A stretch of 64,000 nt of DNA. Source: Methylobacter sp. (lineage in GTDB: Bacteria > Pseudomonadota > Gammaproteobacteria > Methylococcales > Methylomonadaceae). The translations under genes were made by a program, and so were the position numbers. Below, one piece after another: positions 3,301-38,312 of this stretch (position 1 is the stretch's first letter; each line of letters opens with the position of its first letter). The stretch covers positions 1 through 64,000 of the forward strand of contig NZ_JAUXVR010000032.1 of the NCBI RefSeq assembly GCF_030680395.1. Direction: 5' to 3'. A model generated the notes under the pieces. The model saw only the letters and a program-made list of their open reading frames with translations, did no database searches and was not told where the DNA came from.

Positions 3301-5907
3301 TTTCTCTTCACTCTCTTTTAGTGCATCTTCCGACAATTTGCGCTCGGTGATGTCGCGGCCGATAGTCAGTGCGCCGATTACTTCGCCGTTTTCATCGCAC
3401 TCGGCAATCATGCGTATGTTATGAATCATATGCAGCTGCCCATCCGAGGGCGTCACTATTTTCTCGATTTCGCCGCTCTCGCCGCAGGCAAGAACGGTAT
3501 CCAAAAGCTGTGCGTAATCGTCGTATTCGCCGTTGGGGAACAATTCGCGGACTGTCGTGCCGAGCATTTCCGCTGCATCGGCCTCCAAGGTTTTTTCGAG
3601 CACCGGGTTGACGTAAAGGAGCCGTCCTTCCTTGTCATAACGGAGAATATTATCCGGCAGGCTTTCCGCCAGGGTGCGGAACTCGCGCGCGCGTGCGATC
3701 AACGCTTCTTCGGCGCGCTTGCGTTCGGTGATGTCCTGCACGGTACCTAACGAATACAGGGGCTTGCCGTCGTCGGCATAGCTGGTTTCGCAACGCTCCA
3801 GTACATGCTTGACCCGCCCGTCCGCCATCAGCAGGCGGTGCTCGATTTCGTAAGGTTCCCGATTTTCAACCGACTCGGTATAGGCGCGGTCGACAGCTTC
3901 ACGGTCATCGGGATGAATGATTTCAACGAAGGCCTCATAGGAGGCGCCGAACTGCTCCCGGTCAATTTCGAAGATGCGGAAGATTTCCTCCGACCAGCGA
4001 AGGACATTGGTCGCCATATCCAGCTCCCAACTGCCGATATGCGCGATGCGCTGGGCCTCGGTAAGATTCTGCCGGCTTATCAGCAAGGCGTCTTCCATTT
4101 GCTTACGTTCGGTAATGTTGCGGGAAAGCACGATGAAACGCGGCTCTTCCCCTTGAACGGCGGGCTTGCCGGCCACGGAGAGTTCAAACCAGAAAGCGCC
4201 GTTCGGCAGCGACAATTCAAACTGCTTGCCGGTTGACATGCCGTTTTCATGCGCTTCACGCAAGGCTGACATGCAAATTTCCGCCGCATCGGCAGGCATG
4301 ACTTCCGGCACTGTTTTACCGAGCAGGTCTTCACTGGGGGCGACCAGCAAATCGCTATGCGGCGAATGATAATCGTAGTAGCGCCCATCCAGCCCCAACT
4401 CGAACAAAAAATCGGGAATCGTATCCAGCGTGGCTTGAAGCTTGTTTTTGGCTTGCAGCACCTGCGTATTGAGCGCTGCCAGCCTCCGATGAGAACGCTT
4501 CAAACGTACCAGGAAAAAGCCGGTGCCAACCAACATCACGACGCTGCCGCCAAGCACGGTCCATAACCAGCGCTGTTCGAGCGCATGATGCCTAAGTTCC
4601 GCAGCCTGTTGCTGGTTATGGCGGTTGAGTTTATCGATCTCGCGCTGCTTGCTTTCGGTTTGGTAGCGTCGCGTCAGCTGCAACACCCGCATGGCGGCCG
4701 TGTCTTTTGCCATCTTGGCCGCCATCTCGCTTGCTTCGAGCATAAACCGGTAGGCTTGATGATGATCGCCGTTGGCGGCGGCGATCTCCGCCAGCTGTTT
4801 CGCGCTATCGGTCAGGTAGAGCGGGGTGCCGATTTCCTTGGCCAAGGCATAAGCCTGTTCGACATCGCGGTGCGCCCCGTCACTATCGCCCAGCGACATC
4901 CGGCTCCTGCTGCGGGCGTTCAGCGTCCACAACAGGCCGATCTTGTTGGAATAGCGTTGATAACGCCCGATCATTTCGTCGAATATCGGCAAGGTTTCGG
5001 CATAACGTTGCTGCTTGCGCAAGTTATCGGCGAGAGCATACTGGCTGAAATTGACGCTGAAAGGGACATCTATAGCGAGAAAAACCGCAACTGCCTCGCG
5101 AATCAACCGCTCCGCGCTTTCCAATTCGCCGCGATTGTTTTGGATATAGCCAACCCCCATCAGCGCATAGGCTTCCATCAGCCTGGAACCGGCGATCCGG
5201 GCTTGCTCCAGCATTCGCTGATAATATTCGCCCGCTTCATTCAGGTGGTCGCTCAGTTCGTAGGCAATTGCCAAGCCATGATAGGCGTAGACCAGCGCCA
5301 GCGGATTGTTGCTTTGCCGGGCAATATCCAGCGCTTGCATCGACATGGTAATCGATTCGTCGAGCTGATCGGTGCGGCGGTACATCATTGCCATTCTTAA
5401 CAGTGCTTCGCCGAGCAGATCCGGCCGATCCACCCCGTCCAGCACCGACAGACTGTGAATCGTAGCGGCGATCGCATCGTCGATGCGAGCCTGATTGACC
5501 GCATTTAAGGCGGTATTGAGGTCGGCTTCGGCTTGGCCGACCGAGTCGTTATGTTGCTTGGCGAGTTCCATTGCCTGTTGGATATGCGTAGCCGCTTTTT
5601 CAGTTTGCGCCTGATAGACTTCGATGCGCGCCAGCAAATTGAACAGCCGTGCCTGATCTGCAGGCCTAGCGTCGGCGGGGAGATCGGCCTGCAAACGCTC
5701 GGCTTCGGCGTAGGCGCGTTGCGTGTCATTTTCCGCCAGCATACGTGTCTCGCCCGCTTTGTTGCGCCATTGTTCCAATCCAGTATCGGCATGGGCTACG
5801 CCGTACAGTGCGAAAATCAGTAGCGGAGTGCAAGCTTTGCTTGCCCATCGTATAACTTGCAGGCAAAGCCTGCACTCCATCCTTAAATTGATGGGCATGA
5901 CCGCCAT
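310..5907 (-). CDS. TPR and multi-PAS hybrid histidine kinase
   Basis: A very large inner-membrane sensor kinase of about 1865 residues. In order it has a signal peptide ending in GVAHA, a periplasmic TPR-like helical region of about 400 residues, one membrane helix (WLWTVLGGSVVMLVG), about seven PAS/PAC units, a HisKA box with SHELRTPLNG as the phosphoacceptor His, a HATPase domain with DSGVGI and GTGLGLPIS, and a receiver domain (VVDDTEVN, phospho-Asp in LLDMVMPEMDG). Such proteins sense a signal through TPR and PAS domains and pass phosphate from His to the receiver Asp. I chose the ATG at 5907 because it overlaps the stop of the upstream receptor relic as TGATG, which suggests translational coupling. 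The frame stays open to 5955, but that extension is read from the receptor tail. The ligand is unknown. No separate regulator lies next to it. Confidence 0.9.
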   Translation of the reverse strand: MAVMPINLRMECRLCLQVIRWASKACTPLLIFALYGVAHADTGLEQWRNKAGETRMLAENDTQRAYAEAERLQADLPADARPADQARLFNLLARIEVYQAQTEKAATHIQQAMELAKQHNDSVGQAEADLNTALNAVNQARIDDAIAATIHSLSVLDGVDRPDLLGEALLRMAMMYRRTDQLDESITMSMQALDIARQSNNPLALVYAYHGLAIAYELSDHLNEAGEYYQRMLEQARIAGSRLMEAYALMGVGYIQNNRGELESAERLIREAVAVFLAIDVPFSVNFSQYALADNLRKQQRYAETLPIFDEMIGRYQRYSNKIGLLWTLNARSRSRMSLGDSDGAHRDVEQAYALAKEIGTPLYLTDSAKQLAEIAAANGDHHQAYRFMLEASEMAAKMAKDTAAMRVLQLTRRYQTESKQREIDKLNRHNQQQAAELRHHALEQRWLWTVLGGSVVMLVGTGFFLVRLKRSHRRLAALNTQVLQAKNKLQATLDTIPDFLFELGLDGRYYDYHSPHSDLLVAPSEDLLGKTVPEVMPADAAEICMSALREAHENGMSTGKQFELSLPNGAFWFELSVAGKPAVQGEEPRFIVLSRNITERKQMEDALLISRQNLTEAQRIAHIGSWELDMATNVLRWSEEIFRIFEIDREQFGASYEAFVEIIHPDDREAVDRAYTESVENREPYEIEHRLLMADGRVKHVLERCETSYADDGKPLYSLGTVQDITERKRAEEALIARAREFRTLAESLPDNILRYDKEGRLLYVNPVLEKTLEADAAEMLGTTVRELFPNGEYDDYAQLLDTVLACGESGEIEKIVTPSDGQLHMIHNIRMIAECDENGEVIGALTIGRDITERKLSEDALKESEEKYRTLIQKIQAAVVVHGADTQILTSNSVAQEILGLSKDQLYGKTAVDPTWRFFREDGSTAPLDEYPVNKVLASGKALVNYVLGVHRPNNQNDVWALVNADPVFDKDGEITQVIVTFIDITQRKHTEEALAVREREFRTLAENIPDHIIRYDADARKIYVNSGALLGQTPEQTPPEVCAMQIDKFSQNIRRVLETGEPQELEVQVRHADEGTQIHNFRIVAERDEQGRIVGALAVGRDITKLKQAEHDIAVMSQALDKVHEAAYLMDDGAHFLYVNDESCRALGYSRDELLTMSVMDIGPGWTLEMVWAIWQRQREQGLVESFEAEHRRKDGGIFPVEINASQFEYDGKTYSLALVRDITERKRAEDEIRALNIDLEQRVLERTEELRLQTRYLRTLIDTLPMMAWLKDKDSRFLVVNQAMALACAHSVNELVGKSDLDCWPRKHAEAYRADDAEVMTAGQCKTVEELLADARDGAIWVETCKAPVFDEDGSVLGTVGTARDISDRKAMEMAREVALVEAERLARLRSEFMARMSHELRTPLNGIMGYTQILLGENSLNERQSVMLKVIQQSGEYLLQLINDILDFAKIEAGKQELNLSEIQLPRFLRNIASIITVKAEQKGLVFVCDIAEDVPAGIRADETRLRQVLLNLLSNAVKYSERGQVSLRVTVLKKPSPEGEGAHVEFGRLRFEIQDSGVGIDTGQLETIFQAFEQAGDRQQRTGGTGLGLPISRELVRLMDSEIFVSSRVGEGSTFWFDLDAQIVDVNGDIMPVEQHITGYLGPRQRVLVVDDTEVNRALLIDMLSRLGFETAEAANGRACLDSVETRKPDLILLDMVMPEMDGLETARRLRRMPGFGQTPIVAVSASASAYDVAEALKAGINVFLTKPIEIKSLMAQLAVLLKLDWVYALPKTEPSPKHKPDEWLDAPQLEEMRVLRQLAAEGSMRDIIIQADYLDELDASYRPFAEQLRSLAKGYQSKAVLDLVERYIDRRRNHSATD
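5825..5878. repeat. Inverted repeat inside the kinase signal-peptide codons
   Basis: Arms at 5825-5844 and 5859-5878 match at 18 of 20 positions when one is reverse complemented (core GGAGTGCAGGCTTTGCCTGC). The 14-bp spacer makes this a long hairpin, like REP-type repeats. It encodes residues of the kinase signal peptide, the run from ECRLC to SKACTP, so a mobile repeat may have been absorbed into the coding sequence. Confidence 0.6.
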
Positions 5908-26486: not shown

Positions 26487-28499
26487 TTATGGGACCGGGT
26501 TAATCAGCCCTCTATTTCGCCATCTATTGCCATTTACTAGCATTTCGAAATCTGTTCCGTCTGAAAGGGTTAAGTTATCAGCATGGTCAGTTACAATAAT
26601 CTGTGGAGCGAAGCCTTCCTCTTTTTCTACTTCGCAGGAATAAATAGATAAGCGGCTGAATAGGTTCTCTACGGCCTTCATATCATCGTCAATTTGCCTT
26701 TCGCCTTCTGAACGATTCTCCAGCTTCTGTATGGTTTCTTTATTGAAGGTTTCTGACTTGTCGAATTTGAAACTTGGAAAATATACCTGCGTTGGTTGGT
26801 CAAGGAATAATATTGACGGAATCGCGCATTTTTTCCCGAGCGAGGCAAAGTACTTGTGTAGTGCAAGAAATAGGGTTACATGGCTATAGAGCCAGTTAGC
26901 CCCGCTACCCATTGAGCGTAGAAATATCTTTTCATCTTTTGAGTTTAGGTGGTACAAGTCGAAGGTTTCGAAAGAAAAGTGCAAGTTAATGGGCTTATAG
27001 CTATCTTCAAACTCAAAGTACGTACCGATATCTTGCATATAGTGATTAACAGCTTGATCGGCCTTAGCAAGCTCATCTTTATAGTTGTATTTTTTTAGAT
27101 CGAGCTCAATTTCTTTAAGCGCTTTACGAGCGGCTTTTAAACGTTCGTCAACTTCGGCATCATTAACAAAGGTTACGGCATCAATAAGCATGTCCAGCTT
27201 TGCTTTGTAAACCAATATAGACTCGTAAAGGCTCTTCTTCTCTTGTAGCACTTTCTCGGACTTTTCGATTTCTGAGATTTGCGAGGTAATAGCGATCACT
27301 TCATTTGACAGTTGCTCAATTTGCCTTTCGGTATCTAACAGCGACGATTCGAATTTCGCTCGCATGGGCTTAGCTTGTTTGAGATTGTTCGCCAATTTCG
27401 ACACAGCTTGTTTTAGATGCTCAGCGCTTTGTTGTAGTTGCTCATGTTCAGCGCGGCAGAAAGGGCAGACAGATTTTGCAATTTGTATAGTTTCATGCAG
27501 TTGAAAAGTTTCGCCACTCGCGACAAGTTTTTCCTCTTCTGTTATATGCCGCGTTATTGAAGCTGCCTGTCGCTGAAATCTACGTAAATTCGTCGTTTTG
27601 GCCGCCAATTCTTGCTGCAACTGAAAATAGCGCTGTGTAATTGCATCCGATAAAGGAGATATTTTCTCGGGACGGATGATTTTATCTAGCCGTTCTTTCG
27701 CATCTTGTGGATGATTTAGGATATCCTGTAAGGTAACGTAATCTTCGTCCAATCCCATTGACGCATAAAGCTGGCGGAGTACAGGCTCTATCCTTTGCTT
27801 TTGCTTCTCGGCAAGTTGTTTGTTGCTATTCTGTTCGCGATCAATGCGCTTGGCTTCAGCTGTTAAACGCTCTTTTTCTTGTGATAAATGGAAGAACTTC
27901 TGATCAACCAACCCCAAGAAAATCTTAGTATGCTCAATCACTTGATCTCTTTTCTCTTTCTCATCAAAGCGATAGAAAAGCGCATGTTTATTGGCCACCA
28001 GGTTTTGATGTTGCAGCATAAAAGAGGCAAAGCTGCGTATCGACGGCGTTGGTGCTTTAGCATTAAACTTTCTTTGTTCCCTGGTCACTAAGGACACATC
28101 TACATCGTCAATGTCTAAAAACAATCCTCTAACGTGCTTCTTAAATTTATCTAACGCAATAAAATGGCTGTCTACAAAATAGCTGCGATTGATTTTGTCT
28201 GGATGGTATCCATCTTCACGCTTAAAGAAAGCCTTCTTCTCGCCATCGGGTAAACGGCCAAACACAAAGTCCTGATCGTTCACGTTTAAATAGACATAGT
28301 AAAGAGCCGCACTATCGGTAATAATGCCTTTCGGCACAGTGTATTCACCACTGCCAAAGCAATAGTCGAATATTTCAATTAATGCACTTTTACCTGTAGA
28401 TGACTTGCCTGTAACTACATTCAACCCTTGTTTGAATTTTACCGGATGGGTCTTACCTGTTTTATCTATTACTCCTAGCTCATGTATATAAGATTTCAT
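26487..28499 (-). CDS. ABC-3C system ATPase (DUF3732)
   Basis: 670 residues of a Rad50/SMC-like ABC ATPase. It has Walker A GKSSTGKSALIEIFDYCFGSG near the start, long coiled coils, and a CPFCRAEH hook in the middle like the Rad50 zinc hook. Walker B IPSILFLDQPTQVYFP lies near residue 590. This is the DUF3732 family, the ATPase of three-component ABC (ABC-3C) systems, which are predicted to sense invading nucleic acid and activate the effector. It is the last gene of three, overlapping the middle component by four bases. Confidence 0.88.
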   Translation of the reverse strand: MKSYIHELGVIDKTGKTHPVKFKQGLNVVTGKSSTGKSALIEIFDYCFGSGEYTVPKGIITDSAALYYVYLNVNDQDFVFGRLPDGEKKAFFKREDGYHPDKINRSYFVDSHFIALDKFKKHVRGLFLDIDDVDVSLVTREQRKFNAKAPTPSIRSFASFMLQHQNLVANKHALFYRFDEKEKRDQVIEHTKIFLGLVDQKFFHLSQEKERLTAEAKRIDREQNSNKQLAEKQKQRIEPVLRQLYASMGLDEDYVTLQDILNHPQDAKERLDKIIRPEKISPLSDAITQRYFQLQQELAAKTTNLRRFQRQAASITRHITEEEKLVASGETFQLHETIQIAKSVCPFCRAEHEQLQQSAEHLKQAVSKLANNLKQAKPMRAKFESSLLDTERQIEQLSNEVIAITSQISEIEKSEKVLQEKKSLYESILVYKAKLDMLIDAVTFVNDAEVDERLKAARKALKEIELDLKKYNYKDELAKADQAVNHYMQDIGTYFEFEDSYKPINLHFSFETFDLYHLNSKDEKIFLRSMGSGANWLYSHVTLFLALHKYFASLGKKCAIPSILFLDQPTQVYFPSFKFDKSETFNKETIQKLENRSEGERQIDDDMKAVENLFSRLSIYSCEVEKEEGFAPQIIVTDHADNLTLSDGTDFEMLVNGNRWRNRGLINPVP

Positions 28500-28960
28500 C
28501 GCGGAGTTACCCCTAAGAATGCATAAATTTCAACAACTGAAAGATGGCTAAACAACTTCCCTAAATTGGCCCCGCTTTTATGAATATATAATGCTGTCTC
28601 ACTTGTCGGCAGTGTAGAAATAGACAGCTTTTGTGCGTCAATCTCAATCCAGTCGTTGATAAGGCAGTACTGAAGACTTTGATCTGTCAGTTCTTTGAAT
28701 CCATCAAGACGTTCTTGTAAGTCGTATAACTGGGTTCGATCGTCAAAAATTGTCCAAATGGTGCTCTTACTTCTTGGGCCAAATTTAGCATTTGAAATCT
28801 TGTAATAAAATACCGGATAACTGCACAAAGGAATAACCAACTGCGCCACCAACAGGTTATTCTCTACGCCAACTAAATGTGCATAAAATGAGGCGAGATA
28901 TTCGCCGTATTTAAAGGGGTTATACTTTACTTGATAAAGGGCATCGGCCAAACTGGTCAT
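28496..28960 (-). CDS. ABC-3C system middle component
   Basis: 154 residues without a catalytic signature. Its size, the LADALYQVKYNPFKYGEYLASFYAHL start and its position between effector and DUF3732 ATPase identify it as the middle component of an ABC-3C system. Four-base overlaps on both sides (ATGA) show tight translational coupling. It is thought to bridge the ATPase and the effector. Confidence 0.8.
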   Translation of the reverse strand: MTSLADALYQVKYNPFKYGEYLASFYAHLVGVENNLLVAQLVIPLCSYPVFYYKISNAKFGPRSKSTIWTIFDDRTQLYDLQERLDGFKELTDQSLQYCLINDWIEIDAQKLSISTLPTSETALYIHKSGANLGKLFSHLSVVEIYAFLGVTPR

Positions 28961-30093
28961 GGTTCAACCGTCCACTGTAAATCTAGGTCTTCGTCGTCCA
29001 TGGCGTCGTGGATCAGGCCGTTTTTGTATTCAATCGGCGGACTTTGGTAACCCTCTATACCGGCGGGCACTTCACCAATTACGTCGTCATATAAATTCTG
29101 TGAGCTACGAATTGGGTCAACACAGTTACGCCTCTCCTTCGAGTATTTGTGTTTGAACTGCTTGACCAACTGTGATTGATATTGATTGGTTGTATTGCGA
29201 AATTGCGGTGCACCATCAAGCTCTTCATTTAAGGAGTTATGTAACTCAATCCAGTTACCCACGGCTTCTGGGATAACGTCCTCATATTTAATGCATTGTA
29301 TTTTTTGTACAAAGAGCTTCTCTTCATGTAGCGCTAACTCTTCCTCAGTTGCTTCCCGACCCGAAAATATAGGCAATGTAAACTGCCTGCGGCAGTAAAC
29401 AGAGGTGAGTTCTTCACATTTTTCATAAAAGGAACGCTTACTAATTTCCCATTGCTTATTGTCCGCGCTTTCATAAACAAAACCGACAATACCGTGTAAA
29501 TAACTCAGCTGGTTCGCTTTAGGTATGCCGATGAGCCGCCCCTGAATTTTCTCTCGTACCGACTTTTCATCGTCTGCTTGAGTAAACAACACCACTTTAG
29601 CCAACACTGCTTTTAGTTTTTCTTCTTCTGCGACTATTACGTTTTTTTGGTACTGAACAATGGGTTTAGGCTTCTCTGCGGTTAACTCTTCGGGTGTTCG
29701 AGTAGCGTATATAGCTTTAATAATCGACAATCGTCCGTCTACAATTTCCTGATTCCAATTTTTCAGAGACGACTTAGCACCAAATTCCTGGGTAGTATGT
29801 AAAACTAACGAACTATAGTCTTCATGCTTAAATTCAGGCTCGAGCCAATTATTAAGGGTCTTCCAAAAGTTTTCGTGGTGATCTGTCAGCGCATCGCTGT
29901 ATTTCTTGACTTCGGTCTGAGTCGAATCTTCGATCGTTTCACCGATTAAGCTGACATCGCCATCACGCTCAAACCAGACTGATTGGCCTTCACGTATAGC
30001 AAAACATTGCTCTAGCCCTATTAAGACTTGGTAGTGAAAAGCGAGCGTCGTAGTTAACGCAGCATTTTTGGTTTGATTCCCCCGCATACTCAC
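28957..30093 (-). CDS. ABC-3C system effector protein with nuclease-like N-terminus
   Basis: 378 residues. The N-terminal half reads WFERDGDVSLI...STQTEVKKYSDALTDHHENFWKTLNNW, the D...ExK pattern of PD-(D/E)XK/Cap4-type nucleases. The C-terminal third (residues from about 240, ELTSVYCRRQFTLPI, through WIELHNSLN and QYQSQLVKQFKHKY) is the ABC-3C C-terminal domain that docks on the other components. It is the first gene of the operon, so the killing enzyme is made together with its regulators. A nuclease function is predicted from the motif only. Confidence 0.8.
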   Translation of the reverse strand: MSMRGNQTKNAALTTTLAFHYQVLIGLEQCFAIREGQSVWFERDGDVSLIGETIEDSTQTEVKKYSDALTDHHENFWKTLNNWLEPEFKHEDYSSLVLHTTQEFGAKSSLKNWNQEIVDGRLSIIKAIYATRTPEELTAEKPKPIVQYQKNVIVAEEEKLKAVLAKVVLFTQADDEKSVREKIQGRLIGIPKANQLSYLHGIVGFVYESADNKQWEISKRSFYEKCEELTSVYCRRQFTLPIFSGREATEEELALHEEKLFVQKIQCIKYEDVIPEAVGNWIELHNSLNEELDGAPQFRNTTNQYQSQLVKQFKHKYSKERRNCVDPIRSSQNLYDDVIGEVPAGIEGYQSPPIEYKNGLIHDAMDDEDLDLQWTVEP

Positions 30094-30235: not shown

Positions 30236-33154
30236 TCATCTCCGCCTAGCCGCCTGCAAATCAATAAACTTTTCTGTATAAGAACAGGAAAACTCCGCAT
30301 CCTTACGATAATTCGAGCAGCCCCAAAACTGACTATAAGGTCCCTTGCGCAGGCTGAGTGTACCGCTGCATTGTGGGCAGACGGGTTCAACAAAATCACA
30401 TCGCGGATTTTCGCAGACTCGAAATCGACCTTTATTTTGTAGCCCGCCGCCACACCACTGACAAGCCTGTTGCGTATGATTGCAAAGTGGATATTGGCTA
30501 CAACCGAAAAAGCTGCCATATTGGCTATCCCTGGACACCATATAGCCAGTCTGACAGCGGCTGCACGGAATGTTTGCCAGCTTGTCCTGAAAACCCTCGC
30601 CTTGGAATTCGTCAGTTAGAATGGGGTAGCGATTGTCGATCAATTCCCTGACAAAGGGCGATGGGTTGTTGCCATTGGTAACTAAATAAACGTGGTGCCT
30701 AGCTCGGGTCAACGCAACGTAAAACAAGCGGCGCTCTTCAGCATAGTTATAAGCTTCGGCTTTCGGTAATAATAACTCCAGCAGTGGATGAGTTGCTTTT
30801 TCAGACGGAAAACCATGCTTGCCTTTCTCCAAGCCGACGACCACCACATAATCGGCTTCCTTACCTTTAGAAGCATGGACGCTCATGAATTGAATCTTAA
30901 AGTGCGGATACTGGCGTTTTAAAGCAGCCATATTGGGCTTTTTAAAATGAAAGCGGGCCAGCAACAAAACACTGGCCGCCTTGGGGGACTTTGCACTGAT
31001 TGCTGACAAAGCCGCATGAATGCCGATTGCGTCCTGACCAGTTTTAATCAGCGATACGGCGGTATGCTCAATAGCTCGGTGGCTACTGATCTGCTTTTTG
31101 ATTTGGCTGGAGTTCTGCGTGACAAAGCGAGAGGCGACTTCACCAATTTTGTTATTAAAGCGAAAAGTCTTGTCCAAAATGCTGATAGCCGTGGCGCCAA
31201 AATGCGCTTCAAAATCTTTGGTCAGCGAAACATCGCTGCCTGAAAATCGATAAATCGATTGCCAGTCATCACCGACGCAGAACAAACTACTTTCTGGTTG
31301 CTGGGCCATAAAGGCTTTAAGCAAACGTGCTCGACTGGCTGAAATGTCCTGAAACTCATCCACCAGTAGATACCGATACGGCGATTGATAGCGACCAGAT
31401 TCTACATAGTCAATGGCACGACCAATCATATCTTCAAAATCGATGCTGGCCGTATCGCGTAGCCGTTGCTGGTAGGTCTCGTAGATCGGCTCGAACAAAT
31501 AGGCGGCAGCCAACATGCGCTCATGGTCTTCATGTTTCTTGGCCAATTCGACGAGATCCTTGAGATCGAGATAGGCGGATTTGAATAAGGTCAGGATGTC
31601 AGCCATCAATTTGCTGAATTCCGAGACACGGCCCAGCTGTTTAAGATTGTTCAGCAATTCGTTGGCAGGCATGGGCTTGAACGCTACACCGGCAGCCAAC
31701 AATTTTTCGCTTAACGCCTCGGTGAGCCGACCCTGCTGCTTTAAGTAGCTGTAGGTTTCAATCAATGGCGTTTTATATTTTTGGTGCAACTCCCTTTTCC
31801 AGGCCATGCCTGCCAAGTAGCTACTCTGATCAATAAACGGTGGCGTCTGGTTATGTTCATTGACGGCAAAGTGTTCAATATAAATACCGTAGTCAGGCAG
31901 ATAAAAATCGGGTTGATACACCTTGTAATCCGGTCCTGAGGTGTTGACCTGATAATTGGCTTCATAGCGATAGGCGACGCCTTGCCGATACAGAAAATTG
32001 GCGATCTCACATTCCTCATAACTCTTGACCCGCTCGCCTTGTAAAGTGCGAATGTCATTCTCTAGAATATAAGCGTTATAGGCGCCCAGGCTTTTAAAAT
32101 CGTATTGGCTTTTGTAAGGATGGGTAAAACGGACGAAGTAAGTCACCAAACGGGATTTATAGCGGTCATCCTCAAGCAGTAACTGAATCTGCTCATCGAC
32201 AAATCGAGTCCGTAGCTCAGGATCTTCTGCCATTTTGTTGATTAAAGGTACTTCACCTTCAACCTGAGTGATGATATGTTTACCCAGGCTGTGAAACGTT
32301 TTGACCGTCAAATTCTGGATGGCGAGTTTATCTTTGATACGCTCATCCATCTCTTCGGCGGCTTTACGGGCATAGGCCAGCATTAAAATCTGATCCGGTT
32401 TGGCGAGGCCGGCATTCACCAGATAGCCGGCTCGGCCGATCATCGTGCTGGTTTTGCCAGTGCCGGCGCCGGCAAGCACTAAATTATTTTGTTCATCTAT
32501 GACGCACGCTTTACGCTGCTGGTCAGTCAGAGGATTGGTTTCAACCTGGTCAAAAAATGACTGGTATCGGCTGACCTGTTGCTGAATAAAGGCCTGATTT
32601 ATATCATCGATGTGAAGATAGCCCCGTTCCAGTAAGGGCAGTAGCTGTTGATACTGTTGTAAGGCGCTTGATTTCAGATGACGATGACTATCTTTGCGTT
32701 TAAGGCCTAACGTTAGCCATTGATGGGACGTTAGCCATTGATGAGCTATGACATGGCGTATGTAATGATGACCCGAGAATAGGAGCTTGGCTTCTTGAGC
32801 CGCCTGAGCTAAAGCGGGGTTAAACTGCTGATAAAAACGCTGGATAGCCTGTTGAATATGACTATTGAGGTTGGACTGAAGTGGCTTGGATAGCGCTTTG
32901 CTCACACCGCCCAACCGGAGAATTTGCCCATCGTCTTGCTGAATGACAAGGACATCCCAGAACCAGCCGGACTCAACGGCTATATCCGGGTCAACAGCTA
33001 GACATTCGATTTTTTGCTGCTGACCGTTCCCATCGATAAACACAAGGCGATCATCAGAACATTTGAATGCATGGAATCGACTATTGGATGCAAACCACCT
33101 AGCCCTGAAGCTGAGGTTATAGCTGGAGAGGTTTGTTGTCGGCGTGGCTGGCAT
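30236..33154 (-). CDS. UvrD/HelD-like helicase with C-terminal zinc ribbons
   Basis: 972 residues of a superfamily 1 helicase, longer than Rep. An N-terminal domain of about 200 residues resembles helicase IV. The core has Walker A AGAGTGKT (228-235), LAYARKAAEEM, YLLVDEFQDIS, VGDDWQSIYRFSGSD, SVHASKGKEADYVVV and RRLFYVALTRA. The insert with EHFAVNEH fits helicase IV. The end carries three zinc knuckles of topoisomerase type (IPCSRCQTGY...GCSQYPLC, CQWCGG...CENPRC, CPQCSG...FWGCSNY). It is 143 bp upstream of the ABC-3C operon on the same strand and may belong to it. A six-residue unit HQWLTS/HQWLTL is tandemly duplicated near residue 138. Confidence 0.87.
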   Translation of the reverse strand: MPATPTTNLSSYNLSFRARWFASNSRFHAFKCSDDRLVFIDGNGQQQKIECLAVDPDIAVESGWFWDVLVIQQDDGQILRLGGVSKALSKPLQSNLNSHIQQAIQRFYQQFNPALAQAAQEAKLLFSGHHYIRHVIAHQWLTSHQWLTLGLKRKDSHRHLKSSALQQYQQLLPLLERGYLHIDDINQAFIQQQVSRYQSFFDQVETNPLTDQQRKACVIDEQNNLVLAGAGTGKTSTMIGRAGYLVNAGLAKPDQILMLAYARKAAEEMDERIKDKLAIQNLTVKTFHSLGKHIITQVEGEVPLINKMAEDPELRTRFVDEQIQLLLEDDRYKSRLVTYFVRFTHPYKSQYDFKSLGAYNAYILENDIRTLQGERVKSYEECEIANFLYRQGVAYRYEANYQVNTSGPDYKVYQPDFYLPDYGIYIEHFAVNEHNQTPPFIDQSSYLAGMAWKRELHQKYKTPLIETYSYLKQQGRLTEALSEKLLAAGVAFKPMPANELLNNLKQLGRVSEFSKLMADILTLFKSAYLDLKDLVELAKKHEDHERMLAAAYLFEPIYETYQQRLRDTASIDFEDMIGRAIDYVESGRYQSPYRYLLVDEFQDISASRARLLKAFMAQQPESSLFCVGDDWQSIYRFSGSDVSLTKDFEAHFGATAISILDKTFRFNNKIGEVASRFVTQNSSQIKKQISSHRAIEHTAVSLIKTGQDAIGIHAALSAISAKSPKAASVLLLARFHFKKPNMAALKRQYPHFKIQFMSVHASKGKEADYVVVVGLEKGKHGFPSEKATHPLLELLLPKAEAYNYAEERRLFYVALTRARHHVYLVTNGNNPSPFVRELIDNRYPILTDEFQGEGFQDKLANIPCSRCQTGYMVSRDSQYGSFFGCSQYPLCNHTQQACQWCGGGLQNKGRFRVCENPRCDFVEPVCPQCSGTLSLRKGPYSQFWGCSNYRKDAEFSCSYTEKFIDLQAARRR

Positions 33155-33231
33155 TTATTCTTATTGTGCTATTTTGAGGTAAATAAGTATTTTACTCTAA
33201 AGTAGCTACACAAAATTATGCTTGCATCCTT

Positions 33232-33436
33232 GTATGCAGACTATTCACTGTTACATGATTTCATTGTGTAGGCTGATGATGCGTTTGATGACACAATCCG
33301 TGGCATTTTAAATTTAAAGCGTTGCAAGGTGCTGGTTGAAATTCGCGTTATCAAATCTCGATGGACTTTGGATTGATCCTTATACGCATAAAAATGAGCT
33401 AAAGTAAGCGGTTGAGACGCTAACTAGGCATCACAT
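33232..33436 (+). pseudogene. Decayed fragment of hxsC
   Basis: This stretch matches the intact hxsC at 37797-38126 almost base for base: the parts from GACTATTCAC to GAAATTCGCGTT and from AATCTCGATGG to GGCATCACAT. About 120 bases are deleted in between, and stop codons were gained (TAG in the GTGTAGGCTG part, TAA in CTAAAGTAAGC). It is a recent partial duplicate of the Hxs locus, so a second Hxs operon probably stood here before the Abi gene. Confidence 0.9.
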
Positions 33437-33449
33437 GAAGACTCTTTTT

Positions 33450-34349
33450 TTATTCAGGAATAAACAAGCCTTTCATTTTAGTGTTTTCTACACGAACAGG
33501 TCTATTTTCCTTCGAAATAAAGCTGAGTTTGCGGCGAAACTCAGTTGGAGTTAAAGAATGGCGATCAGGGCAGTGTTTAAGAGCTTTATATCTGGCAATA
33601 CCGCGAGTAGAAAGCAAATAATTCAACTTTTGTCTCCAACTTGACTGCAAAATATCAGCGTGGAAATCCTGATTCAGTGCGCTCATTGCATCATCGTATA
33701 AGGCAAGCAATCGACTAAAACGAGCCAAACTTTCCGCCTGGTTATTTGATGCAGGAACCGCCACAATGGTAGAGTTAATGGCGGCAAATTTCCATAGCGG
33801 CTCATGATGTGCAAGACGGTTGCGGAAATCATTTAGTTCATAAATAAATTCCAATGCTTTTCTTTTTTCAGTAGCAATACACCAGTCCTTGGGATTAATA
33901 TTTAGCGGATGAAATGGAAAGATATTAGGAAGGATATGATTTGCAAAGCGTAAGTCGATTACGCCTAGCACACTTGGCCAGAACCCAAAGGATACTCGCG
34001 ATACAATTTCATCAGGGCCAGGTATGGGTTGGCGCTGCTTTTTTGATGGTCCTTTATAGCGAACATCATTAATCATCTTGATAGCGTTAGGTTTTAACGA
34101 AGATTGAATTTTATCGTACCAGTGATAACTGTTGCAGGAACCATGAAATTGAGACAATGTGTAATGAGCATTATTGCGTAAAGCAATCTCGAAGAATGAC
34201 AGGAGTGCACTGAAACAAGCCGACAATTCACAGTTCCACATGTACAACCCAATGGCTTCGTCTGTGCTAACACTAAAATATTGTTTATAGCTGTTTAAAC
34301 GAGGCTTAGAAATTACTTCTTCGAAAACTGTTATGGTAGTTGGGCGCAT
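33450..34349 (-). CDS. Abi_2/AbiF-type HEPN abortive infection protein
   Basis: 299 residues of the Abi_2 family. The early SFFEIALRNNAHYTL and the later LNDFRNRLAHHEPLW (R176-x4-H181) are the two conserved HEPN motifs; R-x4-H is the RNase active site. HEPN members of this family cut RNA to stop growth upon phage infection, and AbiF-type proteins are known to work with a structured RNA encoded nearby. Its start is divergent from a candidate small RNA, and the two share one promoter region. There is no strong ribosome site, which suggests low expression. Confidence 0.85.
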   Translation of the reverse strand: MRPTTITVFEEVISKPRLNSYKQYFSVSTDEAIGLYMWNCELSACFSALLSFFEIALRNNAHYTLSQFHGSCNSYHWYDKIQSSLKPNAIKMINDVRYKGPSKKQRQPIPGPDEIVSRVSFGFWPSVLGVIDLRFANHILPNIFPFHPLNINPKDWCIATEKRKALEFIYELNDFRNRLAHHEPLWKFAAINSTIVAVPASNNQAESLARFSRLLALYDDAMSALNQDFHADILQSSWRQKLNYLLSTRGIARYKALKHCPDRHSLTPTEFRRKLSFISKENRPVRVENTKMKGLFIPE

Positions 34350-34359
34350 TCTGTATCAC

Positions 34360-34392
34360 TTGACACGTTAATTGTTATTTGCTAGTATTATA
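34360..34392. promoter_or_regulatory. Overlapping divergent promoters of sRNA and Abi gene
   Basis: Plus strand: TTGACA (34360-34365), 17-bp spacer, TAGTAT (34383-34388), a near-consensus sigma-70 promoter for the RNA candidate. Minus strand: TATAAT (complement of 34387-34392) overlaps the plus -10 and would serve the Abi gene. The two polymerases cannot occupy the site together, which would couple RNA and protein levels. Confidence 0.65.
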
Positions 34393-34394
34393 TA

Positions 34395-34470
34395 CGAAGC
34401 ATTGGTAAGCCTAACCCGCAGGGGCGCTTCAATGCAAAGAATGGGGCCTTCTTCGGAAGGCCTTTTTTTT
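34395..34470 (+). ncRNA. Candidate AbiF-associated small RNA
   Basis: About 76 nt between a near-consensus promoter and a perfect terminator, with no open frame or ribosome site. GAAGC (34396-34400) can pair with GCTTC (34426-34430), and GCATTG (34399-34404) with CAATGC (34430-34435). The order is crossed, giving a possible H-type pseudoknot, with CCCGCAGGG as a small inner hairpin. RNAs near abiF genes are a known motif class (abiF RNA). Whether this one matches that model needs a covariance search. It is divergent from the Abi gene rather than upstream on the same strand. Confidence 0.6.
34445..34470 (+). terminator. Intrinsic terminator with UUCG loop
   Basis: Stem GGCCTTC/GAAGGCC around a TTCG tetraloop, then eight T. 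A perfect Rho-independent terminator on the plus strand, ending the small RNA. Confidence 0.95.
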
Positions 34471-35173
34471 ACAAAATTTTAGTTTAAAAACCAAAACTGA
34501 TCACTGTTATTGGCCATAATAGGTGGTTATAAGATCAGAAGCGCCCGCTATAATATGAGCCAGAGATGCTGTTTCATCAACAGCTATTGTGAACCAAAAA
34601 TGAAGATAAATCCAATACTGTTCCTATTCCCTTAGCCAAAGCGTTGCCTGTTGCAGGCAAAGGCTTTCCGTCCAAACACCGCAATTGAAATTGTCTGGCT
34701 CAGATAATTGTTTTCTCATAAACGGCACCGGCAATACCACGAATGGACAGCCTAGCGAGTTTGCTGCATGGGTCGTGTTTGCGCCGCCGCAATGAATAAT
34801 TGCAGCACATTAAGTCACCGTTTCTAAAAATAACTCTATTACTTCCCCTCAGAATTTCTTTCTGAAGTTTCCCAATAATTTGAAAAGTTAGCCCCCGTAA
34901 TACTGTGGCTGTAGTGGTTTTTCAATCGGCACCGATGCGATGGGCTCAAGATAGTATACCAAAAACAGCAGTTGTTCTCTATTTGTTCTGCTTTATTAAA
35001 GGAGATTGGTCGTTGGTAAACTAAGAGCCTAACTCTGATTAAGATTGGCAGGTACCGCCCACTTGTCCTGGCAGCTACACACCATCCCAGTACACTGATG
35101 TTGCTCTTATCTAGTTAATAATATATGGTGTCTTTTGATTCAATTTCGAATCGCTATTCAGGAGTCTATTTTT
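34471..35173. other. Intergenic leader of the Hxs operon
   Basis: No gene was recognised over 700 bp. AT-rich sequence just before 35130 may contain the Hxs promoter (AATAATATATGG area), but I cannot fix -35 and -10 boxes. Confidence 0.4.
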
Positions 35174-37164: not shown

Positions 37165-38312
37165 TCAAATTGCATTCAAAAGGTAACCAGCCGCTTTCTG
37201 TTGTTCAACATCAAAAGCCTTTTATAGCCAAGGTCACCACAAATTGTGAATTACCGTTTGGTTTGCGCGCTAAGCATGCTCTGATGATGCCAGTGGCTGA
37301 TTGCATACCCGATGGTTTTGGTTTGGTATTATTAGGTCACGACGAGCCTTGTCAGACGCCTGTGAACACCCTGAGATTAGCGCCTGAGCTGCGTTACATT
37401 AAAGATCATGATGTGATTAAGTTTTACCCAGACATCGCAAAAATAGATGTTCTATTTCGAAAAGAAGCCAATACCAACTCTTTTTTGGTGACTGAGCGTT
37501 GTAACTCATTTTGCCTTATGTGTTCACAGCCACCAAAAGATATTGATGATCATTACTTGGTTGACGATATGTTGGCCGCCTTACCATTGATACATCCGGA
37601 TACCCACGAGATAGGTATTACCGGTGGCGAGACAACCTTGGTAGGCGATGACTTCATTCGTCTCATCCAGGCAGCTAAAAATCATCTTCCCAACACAGCG
37701 TTGCATATCTTGTCCAATGGGCGAAACTTTAAAAATCTGGATTTGGCTGTCCAAGTTTCGAAAGTTAAACACCCCGATGTAATGATTGGCATCCCTTTAT
37801 ATGCGGACTATTCACAGCTACATGATTTCATCGTGCAGGCTGATGATGCGTTTGATGACACAATCCGTGGCATTTTAAATTTAAAGCGTTGCAAGGTGCC
37901 GGTTGAAATTCGCGTTGTTATCCATCAGCAAAATTACCATCGTCTATCAAGACTGGCTGAATTTCTCGTCAGAAATCTGCTATTTGTTGACCATGTCGCA
38001 CTGATGGGGCTTGAGCTCATGGGATTTGCGAAATCAAATCTCGATGGGCTTTGGATTGATCCTTATTCGTATAAAAATGAGCTAAAGGAAGCGGTTGAGA
38101 CGCTAACTAGGCATCACATAAGGACATCTATATACAACACGCCACTATGCCTCATAGATGAGTCAATAAGGCAATATTCAGTTTGCTCTATAAGTGATTG
38201 GAAGAATGACTATCTTGATATTTGTGAAGGCTGCTCCATGAAAAATTCAAAGTGCGGTGGTTTTTTCTCTTCAAATTTACGGAAAGTCAGTGACCATCTC
38301 CACGTTATCTAA
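37161..38312 (+). CDS. hxsC: Radical SAM maturase HxsC
   Basis: 383 residues with CX3CX2C at C114, C118 and C121 (TERCNSFCLMCSQPP), a GGET motif (IGITGGETTLV) and C-terminal cysteines (YSVCS, DICEGCSMKNSKCGGFF). This is the second radical SAM enzyme of Hxs loci, always paired with HxsB. A damaged second copy of its central part lies at 33232-33436, which shows the locus was duplicated. It is followed after nine bases by a methyltransferase gene. Confidence 0.92.
   Translation: MIKLHSKGNQPLSVVQHQKPFIAKVTTNCELPFGLRAKHALMMPVADCIPDGFGLVLLGHDEPCQTPVNTLRLAPELRYIKDHDVIKFYPDIAKIDVLFRKEANTNSFLVTERCNSFCLMCSQPPKDIDDHYLVDDMLAALPLIHPDTHEIGITGGETTLVGDDFIRLIQAAKNHLPNTALHILSNGRNFKNLDLAVQVSKVKHPDVMIGIPLYADYSQLHDFIVQADDAFDDTIRGILNLKRCKVPVEIRVVIHQQNYHRLSRLAEFLVRNLLFVDHVALMGLELMGFAKSNLDGLWIDPYSYKNELKEAVETLTRHHIRTSIYNTPLCLIDESIRQYSVCSISDWKNDYLDICEGCSMKNSKCGGFFSSNLRKVSDHLHVI

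Follow-up and report, generated by a model that had tools for sequence, protein, structure and literature searches.

In the parts of the relevant papers covered here, the AbiF protein of C. difficile is described as a toxin that is neutralized through direct binding of the RNA RCd22 and whose toxicity depends on R202/H207 (PMC12373285); PbAbiF is held by AbiFr and Cas13 is held to derive from the AbiF fold (PMC12737573), while PD-T4-5, termed a distant AbiF/D relative, works by abortive infection (PMC9519451). Here we analyze a gene encoding an Abi_2/PD-T4-5-type HEPN protein (hereafter abi) and a divergent small RNA gene in a 64,000-nucleotide stretch of a Methylobacter sp. genome (contig NZ_JAUXVR010000032.1, positions 1 to 64,000), which as a whole is termed the window and to which coordinates refer unless preceded by a locus designation. 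The protein family, its fold, the RNA gene with its promoter and terminator, a covarying helix and the linkage of the two genes were computed here. The locus is a real, conserved protein-RNA unit of the known AbiF-with-RNA type, with separate, relocatable RNA genes that are absent from Rfam. The conserved structured RNA with its own promoter and terminator, which an initial annotation had proposed from the window, recurs in the same divergent place in 10 of the 10 closest relatives found (L022-L031), and a strong terminator pointing away from the gene lies 50-260 nucleotides (nt) upstream of the start codon in 60 of 86 abi genes as against 8 of 228 control open reading frames (ORFs). We consider it likely that this is an AbiF-type two-gene unit, in which an independently transcribed divergent RNA binds and restrains a HEPN ribonuclease (RNase) toxin. 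Its elements are as follows:

33450-34349, minus strand: abi gene, Abi_2/PD-T4-5-type HEPN protein of 299 amino acids (aa), by Pfam, PADLOC, AlphaFold2 and structural match to PDB 8VZ6
33807-33824, minus strand: HEPN catalytic motif R176-N-R-L-A-H181 (R-phi-x3-H), by conservation in relatives
34360-34388, plus strand: sigma-70-type promoter of the RNA, TTGACA-17-TAGTAT, scoring 10 of 12 in the promoter scan, with TG before the -10 box
34395-34472, plus strand: small noncoding RNA gene of about 78 nt, ends predicted from conservation in relatives and RNA model R1
34399-34404, plus strand: 5' arm of helix P1, GCATTG, covarying with 34430-34435
34430-34435, plus strand: 3' arm of helix P1, CAATGC, covarying with 34399-34404
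34415-34424, plus strand: apical CCC-GCAG-GGG hairpin, CCCGCAAGGG, present in 7 of the 11 sequences of alignment A2 (see below)
34436-34442, plus strand: single-stranded AAAGAAT linker, delineated by eye
34443-34470, plus strand: intrinsic terminator with UUCG loop, a 9-bp hairpin (34443-34464) followed by a run of T's

The assignment of the protein to the Abi_2/AbiF-type HEPN proteins was borne out at the level of sequence profiles, motif and predicted fold. The Pfam profile Abi_2 (PF07751) matches it with 36.2 bits, above the curated cut-off of 25.6, and matches 32 of the 33 aligned proteins at E<=0.001. Its best PADLOC family is PD-T4-5 (65.4 bits, a partial match to positions 12-217 of the 309 in the profile), which is matched by all 33 aligned proteins. 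N177 and H181 of the catalytic motif are present in all 33 and R176 in 32; more widely, the R-phi-x3-H pattern occurs in 80 of the 86 family proteins examined and is missing from five short ORFs (33-193 aa) and from L074, in which Cys replaces Arg. The AlphaFold2 model, built on the 33-row alignment, has a mean predicted local distance difference test score of 94.4, and in VIA-align its top match is 8VZ6_A, PbAbiF with its noncoding RNA (Z 12.2, root mean square deviation 4.0, 214 residues); with the runner-up at Z 5.1 this is the only structural match standing out. Foldseek likewise places 8VZ6 first (E 3.1e-3, probability 1.00). As no other row comes near this one, and as it accords with the Pfam assignment, the model points to an AbiF fold, at 18% sequence identity to PbAbiF. 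Searches of PDB sequences with the protein or the profile recovered no convincing relative, the weak rows being a ParB domain and apolipoprotein E, and a Pfam search of the genome found no second Abi_2 protein.

The near-consensus promoter and UUCG terminator that had been noticed around a short noncoding stretch divergent from abi are indeed present, the -35 box lying 11 nt from the abi start codon. Judged from the window alone, the RNA element exceeds chance weakly: the 49 nt 5' of the terminator have a folding z of -1.54 (equalled or bettered by 13 of 200 shuffles), as compared to z -3.77 with the terminator included, and a promoter scan of the 3-kb stretch around the unit finds 5 sites against 7.3 in shuffles. 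The element becomes clear because it is present in all 10 closest relatives found and because its nested helix covaries. In the source genome the window RNA is the only match of model R1. At gathering score, Rfam models applied to the window and 57 distinct relative loci did not yield RF03085, the abiF RNA family; tRNA, RNAI and nhaA-I were matched instead. The candidates Ysr49 and Atu_C8 were rejected, since they reach 24.2 and 21.8 bits in relation to gathering scores of 95 and 50 and owe these bits mainly to the terminator.

A first scan of genome contigs with the single window protein gave no matches, and L045 used against E. coli genomes gave none either. Including the window's own genome in each count, a protein match was found in 8 of 369 genomes of the class sample and 5 of 237 of the family sample, and the distant loci from these samples carry little information on the RNA. 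A profile search of genome contigs yielded 63 relatives of the window protein, ten of which (L022-L031, from Cupriavidus, Aquabacterium, Methylobacillus, Janthinobacterium, Rubrivivax, Verminephrobacter and Roseateles) show 40-51% identity in the best segment. Aligning the window RNA with those of L022-L031 and of L139 and L143-L146, five later finds made with the RNA model, gives 16 rows, in which 90.2% of the cells of P1 (GCAUUG/CAAUGC and one more pair) are paired and 12 are changed on both sides. The covariation score of P1 is 0.474 as against 0.326 (standard deviation, sd, 0.041) in shuffles, none of 500 being as high, and stays <=0.152 when slid, so that the covariation anticipated for relatives is indeed seen; the innermost P1 pair fails in 9 of the 16 rows. 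For the whole nested hairpin in the first 11 rows (alignment A2) the score is 0.252 versus 0.185 in shuffles (0/500 as high), with two counting measures within the shuffles (82/500 and 69/500). The stem of the apical hairpin is invariant in A2 and therefore contributes no covariation evidence. By eye, a purine-rich AAAGA-like stretch follows P1 on the 3' side in the relatives as well. Matches of R1 to the reverse strand of its own hairpins (L023, L030 and L029, E 0.0008-0.007) are due to the palindromic stems.

The initial annotation had further envisaged a pseudoknot of two crossing helices. The strings of both exist (GAAGC at 34396-34400 with GCTTC at 34426-34430, and GCATTG with CAATGC as listed above), and the two helices cross and have bases in common. 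Of this proposal the nested GCATTG/CAATGC helix, P1, stands, whereas the crossing GAAGC/GCUUC helix falls: its covariation is 0.023, 70 of 500 shuffles are as high, and among its five pairs one is open in 11 and another in 13 of the 16 rows. From the comparison of sequences, the crossing helix is a feature of the window sequence that the family does not share. A nested alternative, in which GCUU would pair with AAGC at 34407-34410, is not kept throughout either (column 16 is unpaired in 5 of 11).

At many loci of about 25-35% protein identity we found a longer RNA of the form GUARGC-RCUUGG ... CCAAG-A-YGC-AAARA followed by a terminator. In A3, a MAFFT alignment of 21 chosen loci of this long class, the covariation score is 0.362 against 0.198 (sd 0.014) in shuffles (0/500 as high; slides <=0.147), pairing in P1 holds for 97.6% of cells and 6 of 8 pairs of the helix P2 are altered on both sides. 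The 43 model-fitted matches, in an alignment biased towards the structure and with four of them being weak matches above E 0.01, score 0.517 versus 0.214, with five of five measures above all shuffles. Searched against 98 sources, the model built for this class, R2, has 39 matches at E<=0.01, of which 21 are training rows; the other 18, several of them previously spotted by eye and some near-copies of training rows, all lie on the strand opposite to abi. Both classes have a common layout, namely a P1 whose foot is GC, then an AAAGA-like stretch and a terminator.

The linkage test over the family rests on 86 genes, the window's and those of 85 fetched loci (excluding near-identical viral copies, very distant matches and some fragments), with 228 mechanical ORFs of at least 120 aa from the same sequences as controls; at laxer thresholds the divergent terminator is found 61 versus 11 (middle) and 63 versus 18 times. 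Of the 25 genes lacking it at the middle threshold, one (L017) is preceded by an R2 match, and eight have a downstream convergent R2 match at E<=0.01 (L019, L021, L034, L036, L052, L053, L058 and L073). Five more have a similar downstream element (L062, L064, L068, L071 and L072; unfiltered R2 gives E 0.05 to 1.8 for four of them, and L062 was placed by eye alone), and by eye one is also seen at L018, L075 and possibly L082. The Abi gene at L075:2011-2430 belongs to a Bacillota genome bin (Erysipelothrix), the RNA-like element recognized there by eye being downstream on the opposite strand. In four further loci a third RNA type with a different hairpin and its own TTGACA box lies downstream of abi in tandem, as judged by comparison:

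L014:3476-3572, plus strand: third RNA type, tandem downstream of abi
L033:3494-3590, plus strand: the same
L069:1619-1715, plus strand: the same
L016:3497-3600, plus strand: the same

Here 8 of 28 pairs are changed on both sides, three of the four rows being close copies. This type has a UAAUAAAWUUCUCG loop on a stem changing on both sides and occurs in Vibrio and Acinetobacter. Upstream units with other sequences are found in other subfamilies (Enterobacteria, Duganella, Proteus/Aliivibrio). From inspection by eye and the terminator test, subfamily-specific divergent candidates of other sequence, each with promoter, short RNA and terminator, precede abi at L032, L040, L043, L044 and L065, and more such candidates are seen at L077-L079, at L076 and L080, and at L107, L113, L114 and L118. 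At L063 two RNA copies (2315-2443 and 4581-4695, minus strand) and a duplicated OmpA-like gene surround a single abi.

In a tree of 75 proteins, from which 11 short or distant rows were excluded, the tandem layout accounts for one change and the convergent downstream layout for three changes forced by well supported branches; the latter could in principle also be explained by a single gain with two losses, and the eye-placed L018 and L075 are the basis for one of the three. Relocation is plainest for L052 and L058, which are nested with eight divergent loci in a supported clade and still have an R2 RNA, of about 90 bits, but downstream. Thus, of the expectation that homologous loci would carry an RNA at this position, the presence of the RNA held, while its place differs in some lineages. 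Such relocation with kept linkage fits a trans-acting partner rather than a leader or antisense element.

We also scanned 398 genomes of the family of Cupriavidus agavae for specificity. R2 gave 15 matches in 14 genomes, 12 of them with an Abi ORF within 1.5 kb (two of these 12 flank one single gene), and R1 gave 10 matches in 10 genomes, 7 with an Abi ORF within that distance. Twelve of the 25 matches are loci already seen, and an Abi ORF stands beside 7 of the 13 others.

The expression signals of the two genes differ in strength. Promoters were tested for 46 of 50 RNAs (the window's, 10 from R1 and 39 from R2; L015, L073, L081 and the second copy in L063 were excluded), and the mean best score is 8.11 of 12 versus 5.04 (sd 0.39) after shuffling the bases of the segments tested. 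Scores of at least 9 are reached in 20 of 46 against 1.1 expected and 0 of 46 on the reverse strand, and the -10 box precedes the model start by 4-6 nt in 40 of 46. Towards abi, none of the 29 relatives examined has a promoter scoring at least 9 of 12 in the 220 nt upstream. The window has a candidate abi promoter, ATGAAA-16-TATTAT (9 of 12), at 34577-34550 on the minus strand, 200 nt upstream and beyond the RNA gene. By eye, no clear Shine-Dalgarno sequence is seen in the window and nine close relatives inspected, and some distant loci (L045, L056) have an AGGAG-like one. Given the lack of a clear Shine-Dalgarno and the weak candidate promoter, the Abi protein is probably made in small amounts. 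A strong RNA promoter combined with weak toxin expression signals matches the needs of a neutralizing RNA. At several loci, such as L030 and L139, the RNA is kept beside a broken or shortened abi, as expected if loss of the toxin is harmless.

Based on these observations we infer the following course of transcription, binding, inhibition and triggering. The cognate RNA would be transcribed from its own near-consensus divergent promoter and would fold as the P1 hairpin followed by the AAAGA stretch. It would then bind a dimer of the protein and so hold the RNase inactive; inhibition is proposed here on the analogy of AbiF-RCd22 and PbAbiF-AbiFr. Phage infection, by halting transcription or destroying the RNA, would cause the RNA to run out, and its depletion would free the RNase and arrest the cell. 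The RNA is thus probably a built-in safety catch of the Abi protein, because an RNA of this kind has remained linked to the gene in many relatives, also where its position has shifted.

Several results weigh against this interpretation. Searching 34300-34560 with RF03085, the check suggested by the initial annotation, brought no match up to E 10, and RCd22, in the part of its description covered here, is encoded upstream in the orientation of abiF, into which transcription reads through, unlike the window RNA, which is divergent (downstream in some relatives). As to the fold, Foldseek returns zero matches below E 0.001, and VIA-align cautions that helical bundles with Z below about 13 can reflect a common arrangement. 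As to covariation, the counts of both-side changes and of pair types in P1 lie within the shuffles (184/500 and 398/500), and two counting measures of A3 do not exceed theirs (70/500 and 247/500). The R2 scan gave no match to the window RNA or those of L022-L031, and R1 matches long-class loci weakly (E 0.005 to 1), so that by sequence the window and long classes may be analogous rather than homologous. A search for an RNA at L002, L004, L116 and L117 found none. Finally, copies of the RNA without an abi within 1.5 kb make up 3 of the 15 R2 and 3 of the 10 R1 matches; the orphans comprise the following, together with weaker matches that may be false at L136 (46 bits), L137 and L147:

L130:1501-1604, minus strand: orphan RNA, 65 bits
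L143:1501-1585, plus strand: orphan RNA, 78 bits
L146:1501-1573, plus strand: orphan RNA, 39 bits

These could be leftovers, or solo RNAs that neutralize incoming Abi systems.

Other roles for the RNA can be envisaged. It might act as an antisense regulator of abi, in the manner of type I systems, by pairing with the 5' leader of a long abi mRNA and blocking it: the weak candidate promoter beyond the RNA gene would give rise to an mRNA complementary to the RNA, and the two genes are divergent in most loci examined. We regard this as improbable, as both helix arms change together, indicating selection on the fold; the 29 relatives offer no comparable promoter towards abi; and in L014, L016, L033 and L069 the RNA follows abi on the strand of the gene itself, with a TTGACA box of its own, and is therefore not antisense to it. 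Somewhat less probable still is that the RNA, instead of inhibiting the HEPN enzyme, switches it on as a guide or trigger sensor and so marks a stage on the way to Cas13. In the long RNAs the inner variable region is base-paired and covaries, as the P2 changes show, and hence leaves little free spacer-like sequence, and among the AbiF RNAs in the papers covered the one studied best, RCd22, neutralizes. What speaks for a guide is the match to the AbiF fold, held to be the source of Cas13 (PMC12737573), and a Cas13b chain in the VIA list, at Z 4.9 amid unrelated helical folds.

That the RNA has nothing to do with Abi and is a common small RNA or leader that happens to lie nearby would agree with the weak window statistics (z -1.54 without the terminator) and the few copies standing without abi. 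The excess of divergent terminators over controls, the Abi ORFs beside 12 of 15, 7 of 10 and, among newly seen loci, 7 of 13 genome-wide matches, and a linkage that outlasts changes of place make this the most improbable of the alternatives. We accordingly favor the restraining RNA. It is conceivable, and at present a little less than an even proposition, that all PD-T4-5-like HEPN proteins are RNA-gated, each subfamily having its own fast-changing RNA gene with its own promoter, freely placed (divergent, convergent or tandem) relative to a conserved RNase. If so, these would form a class of trans-acting, modular RNA antitoxins that differ from RF03085 as well as from type III systems of the operon type, and orphan RNAs such as those of L130 and L143 could be leftovers, or decoys neutralizing incoming Abi systems.

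On one side of the unit lie a UvrD-type helicase gene (30236-33154, minus strand) and a Lamassu-like operon of LmuA, LmuC and LmuB (26487-30093, minus strand), so that the abi-RNA unit adjoins another defense system; on the other side is a His-Xaa-Ser operon (hxsA-like, hxsD, hxsB, hxsC). Directly downstream of abi, 33230-33442 is a decayed partial duplicate of hxsC (37797-38125) in two blocks, 94% and 91% identical, with about 107 nt missing between them.

PD-T4-5 has been described as a single gene, and if its members carry a hidden RNA gene, protein-only assays would mislead. How AbiF-type RNases stay silent and are set off would then be addressable in the standard E. coli/T4 setting, and varied partner RNAs around one conserved HEPN fold provide comparative material for the passage from an RNA-bound toxin to RNA-guided Cas13. 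Among the limited set of literature titles and abstract openings covered, a comparison that leaves aside the 2025 AbiF and 2017 RNA-motif papers, none concerns a divergent RNA of PD-T4-5 or of Pseudomonadota Abi_2 proteins.

The PADLOC family of the window protein links it to the anti-T4 system PD-T4-5 of E. coli; in the part of that paper covered here, its main text, the word 'noncoding' is absent in that spelling (PMC9519451). The high-scoring PD-T4-5 members L109 (226.7 bits) and L112 (278 bits) have a divergent terminator and, by eye, a divergent promoter, with RNA candidates unlike the window RNA in sequence. In the type III system ToxIN, an RNA neutralizes an RNase toxin via direct binding, and ToxI is a tandem-repeat pseudoknot RNA located in the toxin operon. 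Our locus resembles type III systems in the linkage of a conserved structured RNA to a toxin gene; unlike ToxIN, its RNA is a single nested hairpin element without tandem repeats, in a separate divergent transcription unit. With PbAbiF-AbiFr (8VZ6, Zilberzwige-Tal et al. 2025), compared by structure alone, it has the protein fold in common (Z 12.2). Unlike AbiF-RCd22 with RF03085, the window RNA is unmatched by that model; yet, like that system as far as its description was covered, in which the RNA is of about 100 nt, the locus combines an Abi_2 HEPN protein bearing the R-N-x3-H motif with a structured RNA that stands beside the gene under its own promoter and terminator.
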